Below, one piece after another: positions 13,138 through 32,927 of a DNA stretch of 64,000 nucleotides (within the stretch, counting starts at the first letter, position 1; the number at the start of each line of letters is the position of its first letter). The notes beneath the pieces are model-generated. The model was not told where the DNA came from and made no database searches. It saw nothing but the letters and a program-made list of their open reading frames with translations. Source of the stretch: Motilibacter rhizosphaerae (GTDB lineage Bacteria > Actinomycetota > Actinomycetes > Motilibacterales > Motilibacteraceae); contig NZ_SGXD01000001.1 of the NCBI RefSeq assembly GCF_004216915.1, positions 806,001 to 870,000 on the forward strand, read 5' to 3'. The position numbers and the translations under genes are program-made.

Positions 13138-13167
13138 GCGCCCGGTCCGCTGCTGCGGGCCGGGCGC
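13138..13167 (+). terminator. Hairpin terminator after the yceI-like gene
   Basis: A 13 bp stem (GCGCCCGGTCCGC paired to GCGGGCCGGGCGC, one G-T wobble) closes a TGCT loop 27 bp after the stop. No T tract follows, as is common in high G+C actinobacteria. Confidence 0.7.
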
Positions 13168-13175
13168 TCGTGCGT

Positions 13176-13284
13176 GGTCCCCGACGTCGTGTGCCTGGGC
13201 GGCGGTCAGGGCGCGCACCAGGTCCCCAACGTTGTGTGCCTGAGTGGGGGTCATAGCGCGCACCAGGCACACGACGTCGGGTGC
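13176..13284. repeat. Imperfect 45 bp tandem repeat with terminal inverted core (family C)
   Basis: Two imperfect 45 bp copies (13176-13220, 13221-13265) share GGTCCCC, ACGT and TGTGCCTG blocks and end in GCGCGCACCA. A third partial copy follows to 13284. Positions 13266-13281 are the exact reverse complement of 13180-13195 (16 bp), so the array can also fold into a large hairpin. It fills the gap before the ProA-like gene and ends about 10 bp before that gene's -10 box. Confidence 0.72.
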
Positions 13285-17475: not shown

Positions 17476-17973
17476 GTGACCACCACCGAGCCCTCCGCCG
17501 CGGTACGCCGCGACCTGGGCTCGGCGCTGGGCGTGGTGCTGCGGCAGTGGCTGAAGGCGTCGTCCGAGGCGTCGGCCGGGGTTCCCGGCGCGCACCGGGG
17601 CTGGCAGGTGCTCGACGCAGCGGTCCGCGGCGAGGCGACGAGCCAGACCGCGCTGGGCCAGCGCTTCGGCATCGACCGGACCGTGCTGACGTACCTGCTC
17701 GACGACCTCGAGCGGGCCGGCCTCGTCACGCGCCAGCCCGACCCCGACGACCGGCGCAACCGCCGCATCGTCGCGACGCCGCTCGGCGTGGAGCGCCACC
17801 GTGGCGTGGGCGAGGCCCTGGCCGACGTCGATGCGAAGGTGCTGAGCCCGCTCGACGCCGAGGAGGCCGCGCGGCTGCGCCAGCTGCTCGACCGGCTGGC
17901 CGGCGACTCCACGGTCACGGCGTGCGAGGTCGCCCAGGACCTGGCGTGCACGGAGGAGCCCCCGCGCCGCTAA
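17476..17973 (+). CDS. MarR-family transcriptional regulator
   Basis: A 165 aa winged-helix regulator. The DNA-binding portion includes SQTALGQRFGIDRTVLTYLLDDLERAGLVTRQPDPDDRRNRRIVATPLG, with the DDRRNR wing. It is divergent from the azoreductase-like gene and probably represses it until a quinone or electrophile binds. One Cys (TACEVAQDLACTEE has two, near the C-terminus) might sense oxidants, but this is speculation. The gene ends at a palindromic repeat array. Confidence 0.9.
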   Translation: MTTTEPSAAVRRDLGSALGVVLRQWLKASSEASAGVPGAHRGWQVLDAAVRGEATSQTALGQRFGIDRTVLTYLLDDLERAGLVTRQPDPDDRRNRRIVATPLGVERHRGVGEALADVDAKVLSPLDAEEAARLRQLLDRLAGDSTVTACEVAQDLACTEEPPRR

Positions 17974-17988
17974 GGGTGCCCCACCCTC

Positions 17989-18106
17989 GTGATCATGCAG
18001 GTCCTGGGTCCCCACTTCGCCGTGATCAGCACTTCCTGTGGGCCCACTCCCCGTGATCATGCACTTCCTGTGGGTCCACTCCCCGTGATCATGCACTTCT
18101 TGGCCG
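17989..18106 (+). repeat. Palindromic repeat family A, left array of four units
   Basis: Four units of about 31-33 bp, each starting with GTGATCATGCA (17989, 18022, 18053, 18085) followed by a T/C-rich TTCCTG and a CCCAC-type block. The second unit has lost two bases of its core. There are no unique spacers, so this is not a CRISPR array. It lies in the 428 bp convergent gap between the marR and GTPase genes and is mirrored by the inverted array at 18219. The 110 bp between the arrays shows no gene or clear signal. Confidence 0.82.
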
Positions 18107-18218
18107 CAGCCTGCCGGTCCCCGACCGTGCGTCGAGGCACCGGTACGAGCGACAGCCCGTCTGGACGGGCGCCGCGCTTCCACCTCCCCAGGGCCAGCGT
18201 CGGCTCTCGGCCGCGAAG

Positions 18219-18382
18219 TGCATGATCACCGGGGAGTGGGCGCTCCAAGATCTGCATGATCACGGGCAAAGTGGGGGCGCCGCAGGATCTGCATGATCAC
18301 GAGCACGTTGGGGCTCCAGGATCTGCATGATCGCGAGCACGTGGGCGCCCCAAGATGTGCATGATCACGGGGGAGTGGGGCG
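18219..18382 (-). repeat. Palindromic repeat family A, right array of five inverted units
   Basis: Five units with core TGCATGATCAC at 18219, 18253, 18290, 18324 (one base changed) and 18358, spaced 34-37 bp and inverted relative to the left array. Each is followed by a GTGGG-type block. Left and right arrays could pair into long hairpins in transcripts from either flanking gene, so the block might act as a bidirectional terminator. Confidence 0.82.
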
Positions 18383-18401
18383 GGGGCGGCGCTAGCGCGG
18401 G

Positions 18402-20012
18402 TCAGCCCGCGCGGCGCAGTGCCTCGCGCACCACGGCGTACCGCTGGAGCTCGTCCTTCACCGGCGCGACGACCAGCACCTCGCCCACCTCGGCCACGGC
18501 GTCGCGCAGCCGCCCGCCCGCGCGACGAGCAGCCCGCCGGCCGGCGCGGCGGCCCAGCGCGGAGCCGAGCGAGGCGATGAGGAGGCCGGCGAGCACGCCG
18601 AGGACGAGCAGCGTCGTGGGCAGCGGGATCCGGCCGACGTCGTACGTCGGGGGCTCGGGCAGGCGCACCCAGTCGACGACGAACAGCGCGGCGAGCCAGA
18701 GCAGGCCGACGACGGCGGCGGCGGTGACGACCCACTGCAGCGCGGCCAGGGGCGGCACCCACCACGGGCGGCGGGCCGCGCTCACCGGCGTCCCGCTGAC
18801 CGCCCGGTCGAGCGCGTCGTCGAGGTCGCCGCTGCGGGAGCGGGCGGCGGCGCGTACGGCCTGGGCCCACCGGTCGGGCAGCGGCGCGGACGCCGCGTCG
18901 GCGAGCCCGCGGACCGCGGCGTCCACCCCCGCGCGCGCCACGGGCGAGGCCGGCGGCAGCGAGCTGCGCGACCCCTCGACGGCGGCGTCGACGCGCAGCC
19001 GGGACAGCGGGTCGCGGCGCAGCCTGCCGGCCCAGCGCGTGACGGGCCAGCCCGTGGCGGCGTGCACCTGGCGCCGGACGCTCTGCTCGACCGCCGCCTC
19101 GACCGCGGGGACGCCGCCGGCGACGGCGAGCGCCTCGCGCAGCCGGGCCCGCTCGGCCCGGCCGACGGTGCCGCCGGCCGGCGGCGAACCGGTCCCCAGG
19201 TCGCGGTCCAGCTCCTCGACCGCCCGGTCGACGTCGGCGGTGAGCCGCTCGACCGCGGCGGTACGCCGGGCGACCGCCCCCGCGAGCGCCTCCTGCAGCT
19301 CCGCCACCCCCTCGCCGGTCCGCGCCGAGACGCTCACCAGCGCGACGTCGGCGAGCCCGTCCGCGCGGAGCAGCCGGCGCAGGTCCGCGGCACACACCTC
19401 GGCGTCCTCGGGGGTGAGCAGGTCGACCTGGTTGAGCGCGACGAGCGTCACCGCCCGGTGGGCGCGCAGCCGCTGGAGGTAGCGCTCGTGGAGGGCGGCG
19501 TCGGCGTACTTCTGCGGGTCGACGACCCACACGAGCAGGTCCACGAGCTCGACGAGCCGATCGACCTCGAGCCGGTGGTCGAGCGCGGTGGAGTCGTGGT
19601 CGGGCAGGTCGAGCAGGACGAGCCCGGCGAGCTCCTCCGAGCCGTCGACGACGTGGCGCTCGGGTACGCCCAGCCAGTCGAGCAGCGGCCCGGCCCCCGC
19701 CGGGCCCCAGAGCGCGGCCACGGAGTGGCTCGTGGTCGGGCGGCGCACGCCGGGGGGCGAGACCTCGGTGCCGGCAAGAGCGTTGACCAGCGTCGACTTG
19801 CCGCTGCCGGTGCCGCCCGCGACCGCGACGACGGTGTGCTCGCCAGAGAGCCGCAGCCGCGCACCGGCGCGGTCGAGCACGGCGCGCGCCGAGTCGAGCA
19901 GCTCGGGGTCGAAGCCGCCGCCGCCCAGCCGGACCACGGTGTCGAGCGCCTCGACGCGGCTGGCGAGGTCCGGCCCCCCACGACGGCGGCGGGAGAGCAG
20001 CCGGGTCACCAC
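18402..20012 (-). CDS. Dynamin-like GTPase with two membrane helices (second of a DynA/DynB-type pair)
   Basis: A 536 aa GTPase. P-loop GGTGSGKST is at residues 66-74, switch region RPTTSHSVAALWG, G3 LLDLPDHDS and G4 NQVD (in LVALNQVDLL). Two hydrophobic helices near residues 415-445 and 465-487 anchor it in the membrane. In Streptomyces a tandem pair of dynamin-like proteins, DynA and DynB, supports septum constriction during sporulation; the architecture and adjacency here suggest orthologues. It overlaps the upstream GTPase by a few bases (GTG at 20012 or 20009). Confidence 0.78.
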   Translation of the reverse strand: MVTRLLSRRRRGGPDLASRVEALDTVVRLGGGGFDPELLDSARAVLDRAGARLRLSGEHTVVAVAGGTGSGKSTLVNALAGTEVSPPGVRRPTTSHSVAALWGPAGAGPLLDWLGVPERHVVDGSEELAGLVLLDLPDHDSTALDHRLEVDRLVELVDLLVWVVDPQKYADAALHERYLQRLRAHRAVTLVALNQVDLLTPEDAEVCAADLRRLLRADGLADVALVSVSARTGEGVAELQEALAGAVARRTAAVERLTADVDRAVEELDRDLGTGSPPAGGTVGRAERARLREALAVAGGVPAVEAAVEQSVRRQVHAATGWPVTRWAGRLRRDPLSRLRVDAAVEGSRSSLPPASPVARAGVDAAVRGLADAASAPLPDRWAQAVRAAARSRSGDLDDALDRAVSGTPVSAARRPWWVPPLAALQWVVTAAAVVGLLWLAALFVVDWVRLPEPPTYDVGRIPLPTTLLVLGVLAGLLIASLGSALGRRAGRRAARRAGGRLRDAVAEVGEVLVVAPVKDELQRYAVVREALRRAG

Positions 20013-31333: not shown

Positions 31334-31397
31334 GCCGCGCCTCCTCCGTACCGTCGGGGCCTGCCGGCCGAACCTAGCACCGCGCGCCCGGCCGTGA

Positions 31398-31506
31398 AGT
31401 TGATCAGGCTGCCCGATCATCGTCGCGGCCGACCGCACGAGGTGGTCGCCGAAGGGGTGGAATCCCGTCGGTGCGGCGACCACCTCGTGCGGCTACCTGA
31501 TCAACT
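31398..31506. repeat. Palindromic repeat family B, complete hairpin element
   Basis: An approximately 109 bp element bounded by AGTTGATCAGG and its exact inverse CCTGATCAACT. Nested inside is a perfect 19 bp inverted repeat (31433-31451 with 31474-31492) containing GCACGAGGTGGTC. Its first 47 bp recur inverted at 7415-7461. It lies upstream of davA in the 421 bp gap before the alcohol dehydrogenase gene's 3' end. No ORF fits inside, so it resembles a REP/MITE-like element. Confidence 0.82.
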
Positions 31507-31570
31507 GCCTCGCCGCGTCCGCGCACGCGTCCGCGTCCCGCACCTGCCTCGCCGGGGCCCGGACCCCAGG

Positions 31571-31755
31571 AACTGCATGATCACCGCGTAGTGGGGGCTG
31601 CCGCGGCTGGGCCCTCATGAACTGCATGATCACCGCGTAGTGGGGGCTGCCGCGGCTGGGCCCTCATGAACTGCATGATCACCGCGTAGTGGGGGTGGCG
31701 AAGTCGATGCGGTCCGGGGCGCCCACAACCTGCATGATCACCGCGCAGCGGGGGT
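31571..31755 (-). repeat. Palindromic repeat family A, 49 bp tandem array
   Basis: Two exact 49 bp units (31571-31619, 31620-31668) and a 27 bp third copy begin AACTGCATGATCACCGC. A fourth, variant copy starts at 31727 and runs to the stop codon of the alcohol dehydrogenase gene. The core TGCATGATCAC is that of the arrays at 17989-18382. Each unit carries an intergenic GTGGGGG block. Exact identity of the first copies implies recent duplication. Confidence 0.85.
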
Positions 31756-32927
31756 CAGGGGACGAACACCGGCCGCACGCACCCGTCCTTCTTCTCCTTG
31801 AACAGCTCGTACCCCTTCGGCGCGTCCGCGAGCGGCATCACGTGCGTACCGAAGAGCTCGGTCCGCAGTTCGCCGCGCGCCATCCGCTCGAGCAGCATCG
31901 GGATGTAGCGCGGCCCGTGCATCTGCGCCCCGCGCACGGTCAGGCCCTTGTTCATCATCGCGCCGAGCGGGAACTTGTCGACGACGCCGCCGAACACGCC
32001 GAGCAGGAACACGCTGCCTCCCTTGCGGCACGAGTAGATCGCCTCGCGCGCCGCGGTGGTGCGGTCGGTCTGCAGGCGGAGCTGCTGCTTCACCTGGTCG
32101 TACGCGTTCTGCACCCCCTCGCTGTGCGCCTCCATGCCGACCGCCTCGATGCAGACGTCGGGGCCGCGGCCGCCCGACATCTCGCGCAGCGCGTCGTCGA
32201 CGTCGACCTGCGAGTAGTCCAGCGTCTCGACGCCCTCGGAGAACTGGCCGGCCAGCGCGAGCCGCTCCGGGAAGCGGTCGATGATGATGACGCGCGAGGC
32301 ACCCAGCAGCTCGGACGCGCGCGCGGCCACCTGGCCGACCGCACCCGCGCCCCACACGGCCACGACGTCGCCCTCCTTCACCCCGCCGCGGTCGGCGCCC
32401 ATCCACCCGGTCGGCCCCGCGTCGGAGGCGAAGACCGCGCGGTCGTCAGCGACGGAGTCCGGCACCACGAACGCGGTCCCGTCGGCGTACGGCACCCGGA
32501 TGTACTCCGCGTGCGCCCCCGCGTTGCCGCCCATCGCGTGCGAGTAGCCGAAGCACCCGCCGGCCGCGTGGCCCCAGAGCGCCTCGGTGATCGCGGGGTT
32601 CGTGTTGGCGTTGTCGCAGAGGGAGTAGAGCTCCTGCTTGCAGTACCAGCACTTCCCGCAGGCCATGAACGAGCTGACCGCCACGCGGTCGCCGACGTGG
32701 AGCTTCTGCACACCCGAGCCGGTCTCGACGACGTCGCCGATGAACTCGTGGCCGATGACATCGCCCTTCTCCATCGCCGGGATGTAGCCCCCGAGCAGGT
32801 GGAGGTCCGACCCGCAGGCCACGGAGCGGCGTACGCGCAGGATGACGTCGTGGGTGTTCTGGAGGTGCGGGTCCGGGACCTTCTTGACCGCGAGCTCGTT
32901 GATCCCCTGCCAGGTCAGCGCCTTCAC
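31755..32927 (-). CDS. Zinc-dependent alcohol dehydrogenase (glutathione-independent formaldehyde dehydrogenase-like)
   Basis: A 390 aa medium-chain dehydrogenase. Catalytic-zinc ligands appear as Cys in ACGSDLH, the GHEFIGDV block, and a structural-zinc cysteine loop MACGKCWYCKQELYSLC. The NAD fold follows (VAVWGAGAVGQVAARASELLGASRVIIID, with the terminal Asp favouring NAD). The sequence resembles the class that oxidises formaldehyde or alcohols, but the substrate is not fixed. GTG at 32927 overlaps the upstream small gene by 4 nt. Its stop abuts a family A repeat. Confidence 0.9.
   Translation of the reverse strand: MKALTWQGINELAVKKVPDPHLQNTHDVILRVRRSVACGSDLHLLGGYIPAMEKGDVIGHEFIGDVVETGSGVQKLHVGDRVAVSSFMACGKCWYCKQELYSLCDNANTNPAITEALWGHAAGGCFGYSHAMGGNAGAHAEYIRVPYADGTAFVVPDSVADDRAVFASDAGPTGWMGADRGGVKEGDVVAVWGAGAVGQVAARASELLGASRVIIIDRFPERLALAGQFSEGVETLDYSQVDVDDALREMSGGRGPDVCIEAVGMEAHSEGVQNAYDQVKQQLRLQTDRTTAAREAIYSCRKGGSVFLLGVFGGVVDKFPLGAMMNKGLTVRGAQMHGPRYIPMLLERMARGELRTELFGTHVMPLADAPKGYELFKEKKDGCVRPVFVP

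Follow-up and report, generated by a model that had tools for sequence, protein, structure and literature searches.

The window analysed here is a stretch of 64,000 nucleotides from Motilibacter rhizosphaerae (genome G000), in which a marR-like gene and a gene for a dynamin-like GTPase converge on an intergenic gap filled by two inward-facing groups of a short repeat. The limits which the initial annotation gave for this gap agree exactly with the gene calls, the marR-like gene ending at 17973 (+) and the GTPase gene at 18402 (-). The nine units which it had described there, four on the plus strand followed by five on the minus strand and spaced 31-37 bp start to start, were all recovered; seven of them carry the exact 11-mer core GTGATCATGCA, one has a single substitution and one lacks a single base (Table 1). 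The central spacer, given as 110 bp, has about this length only between unit edges, the innermost cores being 123 bp apart. The core had also been called palindromic; the 11-mer itself is not a palindrome, although the TGATCA and the TGCA within it are. The TTCYTG and CCCAC blocks assigned to each unit are better described as SR-TCYTGGG 3' of the core and a looser C-rich tract before it, so that the consensus unit in this genome reads C-rich tract, CGTGATCATGCA, SR, TCYTGGG, where GTGATCATGCA is usually preceded by C. A CRISPR array was rightly dismissed, as the copies lie in two orientations and there is no repeat-spacer structure.

Table 1. Repeat units and flanking genes at the convergent gap, and the second array in the window.
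Feature	Position	Strand	Source
Convergent gap with two inward-facing half-arrays	17974..18401	.	gene calls, ORFs, core matches
Core copy 1, exact GTGATCATGCA	17989..17999	+	core matches
Core copy 2, degenerate, 1 base missing: GTGATCAGCA	18022..18031	+	sequence
Core copy 3, exact GTGATCATGCA	18053..18063	+	core matches
Core copy 4, exact GTGATCATGCA	18085..18095	+	core matches
Central spacer without core, between half-arrays	18096..18218	.	sequence
Core copy 5, exact GTGATCATGCA	18219..18229	-	core matches
Core copy 6, exact GTGATCATGCA	18253..18263	-	core matches
Core copy 7, exact GTGATCATGCA	18290..18300	-	core matches
Core copy 8, 1 substitution: GCGATCATGCA	18324..18334	-	core matches
Core copy 9, exact GTGATCATGCA	18358..18368	-	core matches
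marR-like gene, 3' end toward array	17476..17973	+	gene calls, ORFs
Dynamin-like GTPase gene, 3' end toward array	18402..20012	-	gene calls, ORFs
Second array, four exact cores at 31574, 31623, 31672, 31731	31574..31741	-	core matches

With up to one mismatch, the 10-mer TGATCATGCA gave 13 matches in the 64-kb window against 0.5 expected and a maximum of 3 in shuffled sequences. A second array, overlooked in the initial annotation, lies directly after the stop codon of a minus-strand gene (31755-32927). It adjoins another long inverted repeat at 31395-31507, with the form AGTTGATCAGG ... CCTGATCAACT and with GACCACCTCGT arms; AGTTGATCAGG occurs 9 times in an 843-kb sample of the genome. Short imperfect repeats around GTCCCCRACGTYGTGTGCCTG, unrelated to the core, were also seen between two genes at 13160-13275.

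The suggestion that the array belongs to a dispersed REP/BIME-like family was followed by counting the core elsewhere in the genome. In 4.3 Mb, TGATCATGCA was found 333 times, where base composition predicts fewer than one copy; the reversed control was found 0 times, although it contains CTAG and may be rare by composition alone. The copies form more than 100 dispersed clusters, the nine-copy array being one of them, and they are intergenic, enriched in convergent gaps and often paired head to head, so that a dispersed family was upheld. Placement was measured in the 843-kb sample, using a home-made codon-usage gene caller whose gene ends are approximate. This sample contained 118 copies of the 10-mer in 48 clusters, with only one copy inside a gene although 91% of the sample is coding; for the exact 11-mer the count was 1 of 117. 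Convergent gaps held 48% of the copies in 19% of the gap length (p about 5e-13 if the copies are treated as independent, which they are not, and about 5e-6 when counted by gaps), and the first sense core lay at a median of 17.5 nt past the stop codon, the null median being 44. The core was nearly invariant (116 exact intergenic 11-mers against 9 copies with one mismatch), and no other AT-containing intergenic 12-mer was equally common in the sample. A search of Rfam gave nothing relevant for the repeat, and the core string returned only primer-like matches in open-access papers. A link to phages (two chance matches) or to plasmids (one chance match in DNA, none in protein) was discarded, as was a role as backup stop codon, the distances from core to stop having no obvious frame preference by eye. 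A region of about 260 kb (G000:C1:337700-598900) has no exact core and is adjoined by core-rich stretches.

Among 395 genomes of the class, the 12-mer CGTGATCATGCA was present in 0-6 copies in most and in tens to hundreds in a few. A scan of genome contigs placed the inverted pair mostly in Actinomycetes among the matches listed, including Planotetraspora, Kineosporia, Actinomadura and Bailinhaonella. The core is constant across actinobacterial families and the flank to its right is lineage-specific; in four other sets the ratios of exact to one-mismatch cores were 112:2, 48:1, 67:3 and 249:32. Two congeneric genomes, G257 and G157, had the same four gaps occupied; one genome has flanks of the CGCCAG type there and the other CGTTCGCCC, although G257 has just one copy in two of these four gaps, and the flank of that copy matches the consensus type only in part. 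An orthologous array in two Planotetraspora species kept its eight units in order with 85 of 88 core bases identical, while its spacers were near the shuffled or random level. Since orthologous positions are kept between species, the copies appear stable rather than freshly mobile. Arrays of this genus contain 130 steps of exactly 53 bp, and 21 of 30 have equal unit numbers on both sides (shuffled mean 10.8); the exact spacing, together with the near-absence of decayed copies, suggests selection for a host function. Copies in tandem gaps were about equally divided between the sense and antisense orientations in Planotetraspora, G033 and G257. The genome G001, from the same genus as M. rhizosphaerae, has one core in a coding-like stretch and no intergenic cores. 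Neither an empty site nor a target duplication of the array was found in genomes of the same family, in which synteny is lost at the repeat gaps.

Some further ideas on the arrangement were tried and given up. A helical-phase rule built on steps of 53 and 22 bp is not general, as G000 and G033 prefer 34-37 bp, and replication-strand polarity fails in G033, where both strands are used within the same gaps. The Micromonospora-like motif TTGATCATGNAGTT occurs only 0-2 times per genome in 246 genomes of the phylum. The core flank at loci L144-L149 of G004 contains GTTGTCCACAG, which resembles an actinobacterial DnaA box.

The initial annotation had also proposed that the element is mobilised in trans and had pointed to a REP-associated transposase (RAYT). 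The RAYT-type transposase domain Y1_Tnp (PF01797) is absent from G000 and from 8 of 9 other genomes. The idea of a partner acting in trans may nevertheless hold in spirit, with another nuclease family as the candidate. This family was found by an adjacency screen combined with a look at lone genes between inward-facing arrays, where members of one family occur in G000, G257, G157 and Planotetraspora; this step was exploratory, because other single genes occupy such places too. In G000 the candidate is a single-copy gene outside the window (G000:C2:101221-102108), where it takes the position of the central spacer between half-arrays, as it can in other genomes. It encodes a protein of about 300 amino acids with a predicted N-terminal AbiEi-type DNA-binding region and a predicted C-terminal Vsr/homing-endonuclease-like domain.

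A profile built from an alignment of five proteins was used to search 11 genomes, and the flanks of the matches were then checked for exact cores. The best homologue was flanked by cores in all ten core-bearing genomes, on both sides in seven and on one side in G003, G140 and G002, whereas none of 20 other homologues had an exact core within 1.5 kb, two of these 20 rows being pieces of one broken G003 gene with repeats of a diverged core, seen by eye, on its left. The difference was significant for all ten genomes (Fisher, 3e-8) and for the six that had not contributed to the profile (4e-6), which are the fair test, G000, G003, G257 and G157 having contributed. In the tree, the core-flanked proteins group in a single clade (support 98/98), from which only that of G075 is excluded. 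By profile search and tree, G001 has no member of the clade and only weak paralogues. G002 has the smallest number of cores (11), and of its gene no more than the C-terminal two thirds could be detected. The same DUF349-type gene precedes the nuclease gene in G000 and, by flanking sequence, in G003 and G002, so that the nuclease gene looks vertically inherited. No recurrent partner gene, such as a methyltransferase or toxin, was noticed beside the nuclease genes. As far as sequence comparison can tell, the pairing of repeat and protein is well supported.

Pfam searches of the partner proteins detected AbiEi and MTES_1575 domains, in several cases with scores short of the curated cut-offs, and the AbiEi-type region matched abortive-infection models in all five proteins. 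A published description places MTES_1575 among the Vsr-type nuclease domains (PMC3710099). The PF04480 (DUF559) model lacked the sensitivity to find the partner gene, and PF18741 and the AbiEi models fit better. An AlphaFold model (pLDDT 90.5) matched the AbiEi antitoxin structure 6y8q (E 1e-6) and, more weakly, the catalytic domain of the homing endonuclease I-Bth0305I (3r3p; E 0.03, TM 0.70 of target). The candidate catalytic residues are E191, D222, E233, D235, H240 and D249, which members of the core-flanked clade all retain where their nuclease domain is intact and could be aligned. In its predicted catalytic fold and its pattern of acidic and His residues, of the EDxHD type, the protein resembles Vsr-like homing endonucleases such as I-Bth0305I; unlike that enzyme it carries an AbiEi-type fusion and is flanked by arrays, not lodged in an intron or intein. 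Its N-terminal matches likewise recall the AbiE type IV toxin-antitoxin system, but the AbiEi-type part is fused to a nuclease domain and no AbiEii toxin partner was noticed.

The explanation which we prefer, with a probability of roughly 0.6, is that the cores are a REP-like repeat family which is spread or homogenised through the action of the AbiEi-Vsr protein, the most likely trans-acting partner of the GTGATCATGCA family. The AbiEi part of the protein would bind the core, the nuclease domain would nick or cut at or near core sites, and repair or recombination would then spread and homogenise the units. Copies would settle at the safest places, directly after stop codons and above all between convergent genes, the unit flanks would change in concert with the enzyme, and inverted pairs, once placed, could act as 3'-end hairpins or roadblocks. 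If binding, cutting and spreading occur as proposed, the system would thus operate as REP and RAYT do, but through an unrelated enzyme. The sequences themselves establish the repeat family with its placement, the tie of one protein clade to flanking cores and the retained nuclease-type residues, whereas mobility, termination and cleavage are inferred. A binding array, one of the functions initially offered, finds indirect support in sequence features, namely the near-invariant core, the rigid spacing and the lack of covariation between arms. A bidirectional terminator, another of these functions, might be formed by paired copies, whose RNA hairpins are strong, but the gap has no U-tract terminator.

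The chief alternative is a role for the host at gene ends, which, although rather unlikely as the whole explanation, could coexist with the AbiEi-Vsr reading. Here a DNA-binding protein, AbiEi-Vsr or another, would sit on arrays after stop codons as a two-way roadblock, insulator or terminator, and the arrays would be kept by selection and would not spread. The closeness of the first sense core to the stop (17.5 nt against 44), the share of copies in convergent gaps (48% in 19% of the gap length) and the near-invariant core fit this, as do the Planotetraspora arrays, with their 53-bp periodicity held while the spacers diverge and symmetric half-arrays in 21 of 30. The sporadic distribution, with a genome of the same genus without intergenic cores and few 12-mers in most of the 395 genomes, and the equality of sense and antisense copies in tandem gaps argue against it. 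Considerably less probable is a function in self-marking or defence, in which the nuclease would ignore or be held by core-bearing DNA and attack core-free DNA, the cores labelling the chromosome as self. The abortive-infection matches in all five proteins, the retained nuclease-type residues and the hundreds of cores per genome would suit such a role; the lack of a recurrent methyltransferase or toxin gene noticed beside the nuclease genes would not, nor would the confinement of the cores to intergenic DNA, where an even spread would be expected.

Plain RNA hairpin terminators, with inverted pairs selected for folding only, are very improbable. In most inverted pairs of G000 the two cores start 30 bp apart, and 19 pairs fold as RNA with strong stems of -31 to -57 kcal/mol. 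However, there is no covariation between the arms (127 identities in 171 positions against 127.4 when shuffled), and complementarity in Planotetraspora is no higher between mirrored spacers than between others (0.41 vs 0.40). As the arms behave like independent draws from a pool of units and mirrored spacers have no extra complementarity, what is kept appears to be the unit sequence and not the pairing. Conservation of the core across families is likewise not required for folding, and no intrinsic terminator (GC hairpin with U-tract) was found in the gap 17974-18401. Classical REP/BIME elements mobilised by a RAYT (Y1 HUH transposase) share layout and location with the arrays (PMC3733652), but this explanation is hardly tenable, being refuted for G000 by the absence of PF01797 unless a transposase has diverged beyond what the model can detect, and no GTAG or CGTC tag was seen at the unit end in the consensus of four genomes. 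A DNA uptake sequence for natural transformation is hardly more tenable: DUS, too, differ between lineages as dialects and stand as inverted pairs where genes end, but they are common within genes (PMC3630211), where the G000 sample has one of 117 exact copies.

The core family and the REP/BIME/REPIN elements of the GTAG superfamily have much in common: short intergenic units in hundreds of copies and in head-to-head dimers, a position near 3' ends and in convergent gaps, element bases that serve as stop codon, species-specific versions and an enzyme gene flanked by repeats (PMC3733652). The core TGA is sometimes the stop codon of the upstream gene in gaps of G033 and of G257/G157, and the TAG of GTAG REPs has been reported in the same role (PMC3733652). 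The core family differs in lacking the GTAG tag and the Y1 transposase, in having AbiEi-Vsr as partner candidate, in keeping its 11-mer across actinobacterial families and in the rigid array spacing of some genera. REP units are each a stem-loop in themselves; a G000 unit can pair weakly by eye (CCCC/GGGG, GATC/GATC), but other lineages have a different right flank. By tag and enzyme it is not a RAYT-type REP, though apparently working much like one. CGTC-tagged REPs are also REP-like, mostly head-to-head dimers with no known transposase (PMC3733652); the core family has no CGTC tag, and a repeat-flanked enzyme gene has been identified for it. Neisseria DNA uptake sequences offer a parallel in their invariant core with lineage dialect and their inverted pairs at terminators (PMC3630211), whereas the core is almost never found in genes.

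Knowledge of REP repeats comes mainly from a single class of enzyme, the Y1 RAYTs. CGTC REPs were reported without a dedicated enzyme, and the string "Actino" was not found in the main text of that paper (PMC3733652). In the open-access literature no link of AbiEi-Vsr proteins (MTES_1575/DUF559 type) to repeats was found described. Together, the repeats and the nuclease suggest an undescribed repeat-plus-enzyme system, similar to REP/RAYT and built on another enzyme. If true, a second, unrelated enzyme would be tied to REP-like repeats, meaning that the pairing of dispersed repeats with a single resident DNA enzyme had more than one origin; a large class of the intergenic repeats found in Actinomycetes would be explained, and the AbiEi-Vsr proteins would gain a testable role, ten protein-repeat pairs being at hand in which binding specificity and coevolution can be tested directly.

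The paralogues allow a wider proposal, to be taken as tentative: actinobacterial genomes have several paralogous AbiEi-Vsr nucleases, and each of these might recognise and maintain a separate family of palindromic intergenic arrays, GTGATCATGCA being one dialect and CAGAATGCTGG of G033 another, with enzyme and sites coevolving. A G033 paralogue is flanked by the second palindromic repeat of that genome, the CAGAATGCTGG family, with an exact inverted match of 36 nt. Inverted flank matches of at least 13 nt were found for 8 of 19 paralogues against 2 of 190 control genes; many AbiEi-Vsr paralogues have no detectable flanking repeats. The second G033 repeat, CAGAATGCTGGGTT...CAACCCAGCATTCTG, often lies inside core arrays (e.g. 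L074, L423). Beside an AbiEi-Vsr paralogue on contig C3 of G000 (L420), a palindrome of the TTGATCGGGGNCCCCGATC type was seen on each side, at about 1255-1275 and 2450-2470, and at L042 a palindrome similar to this type adjoins a core.
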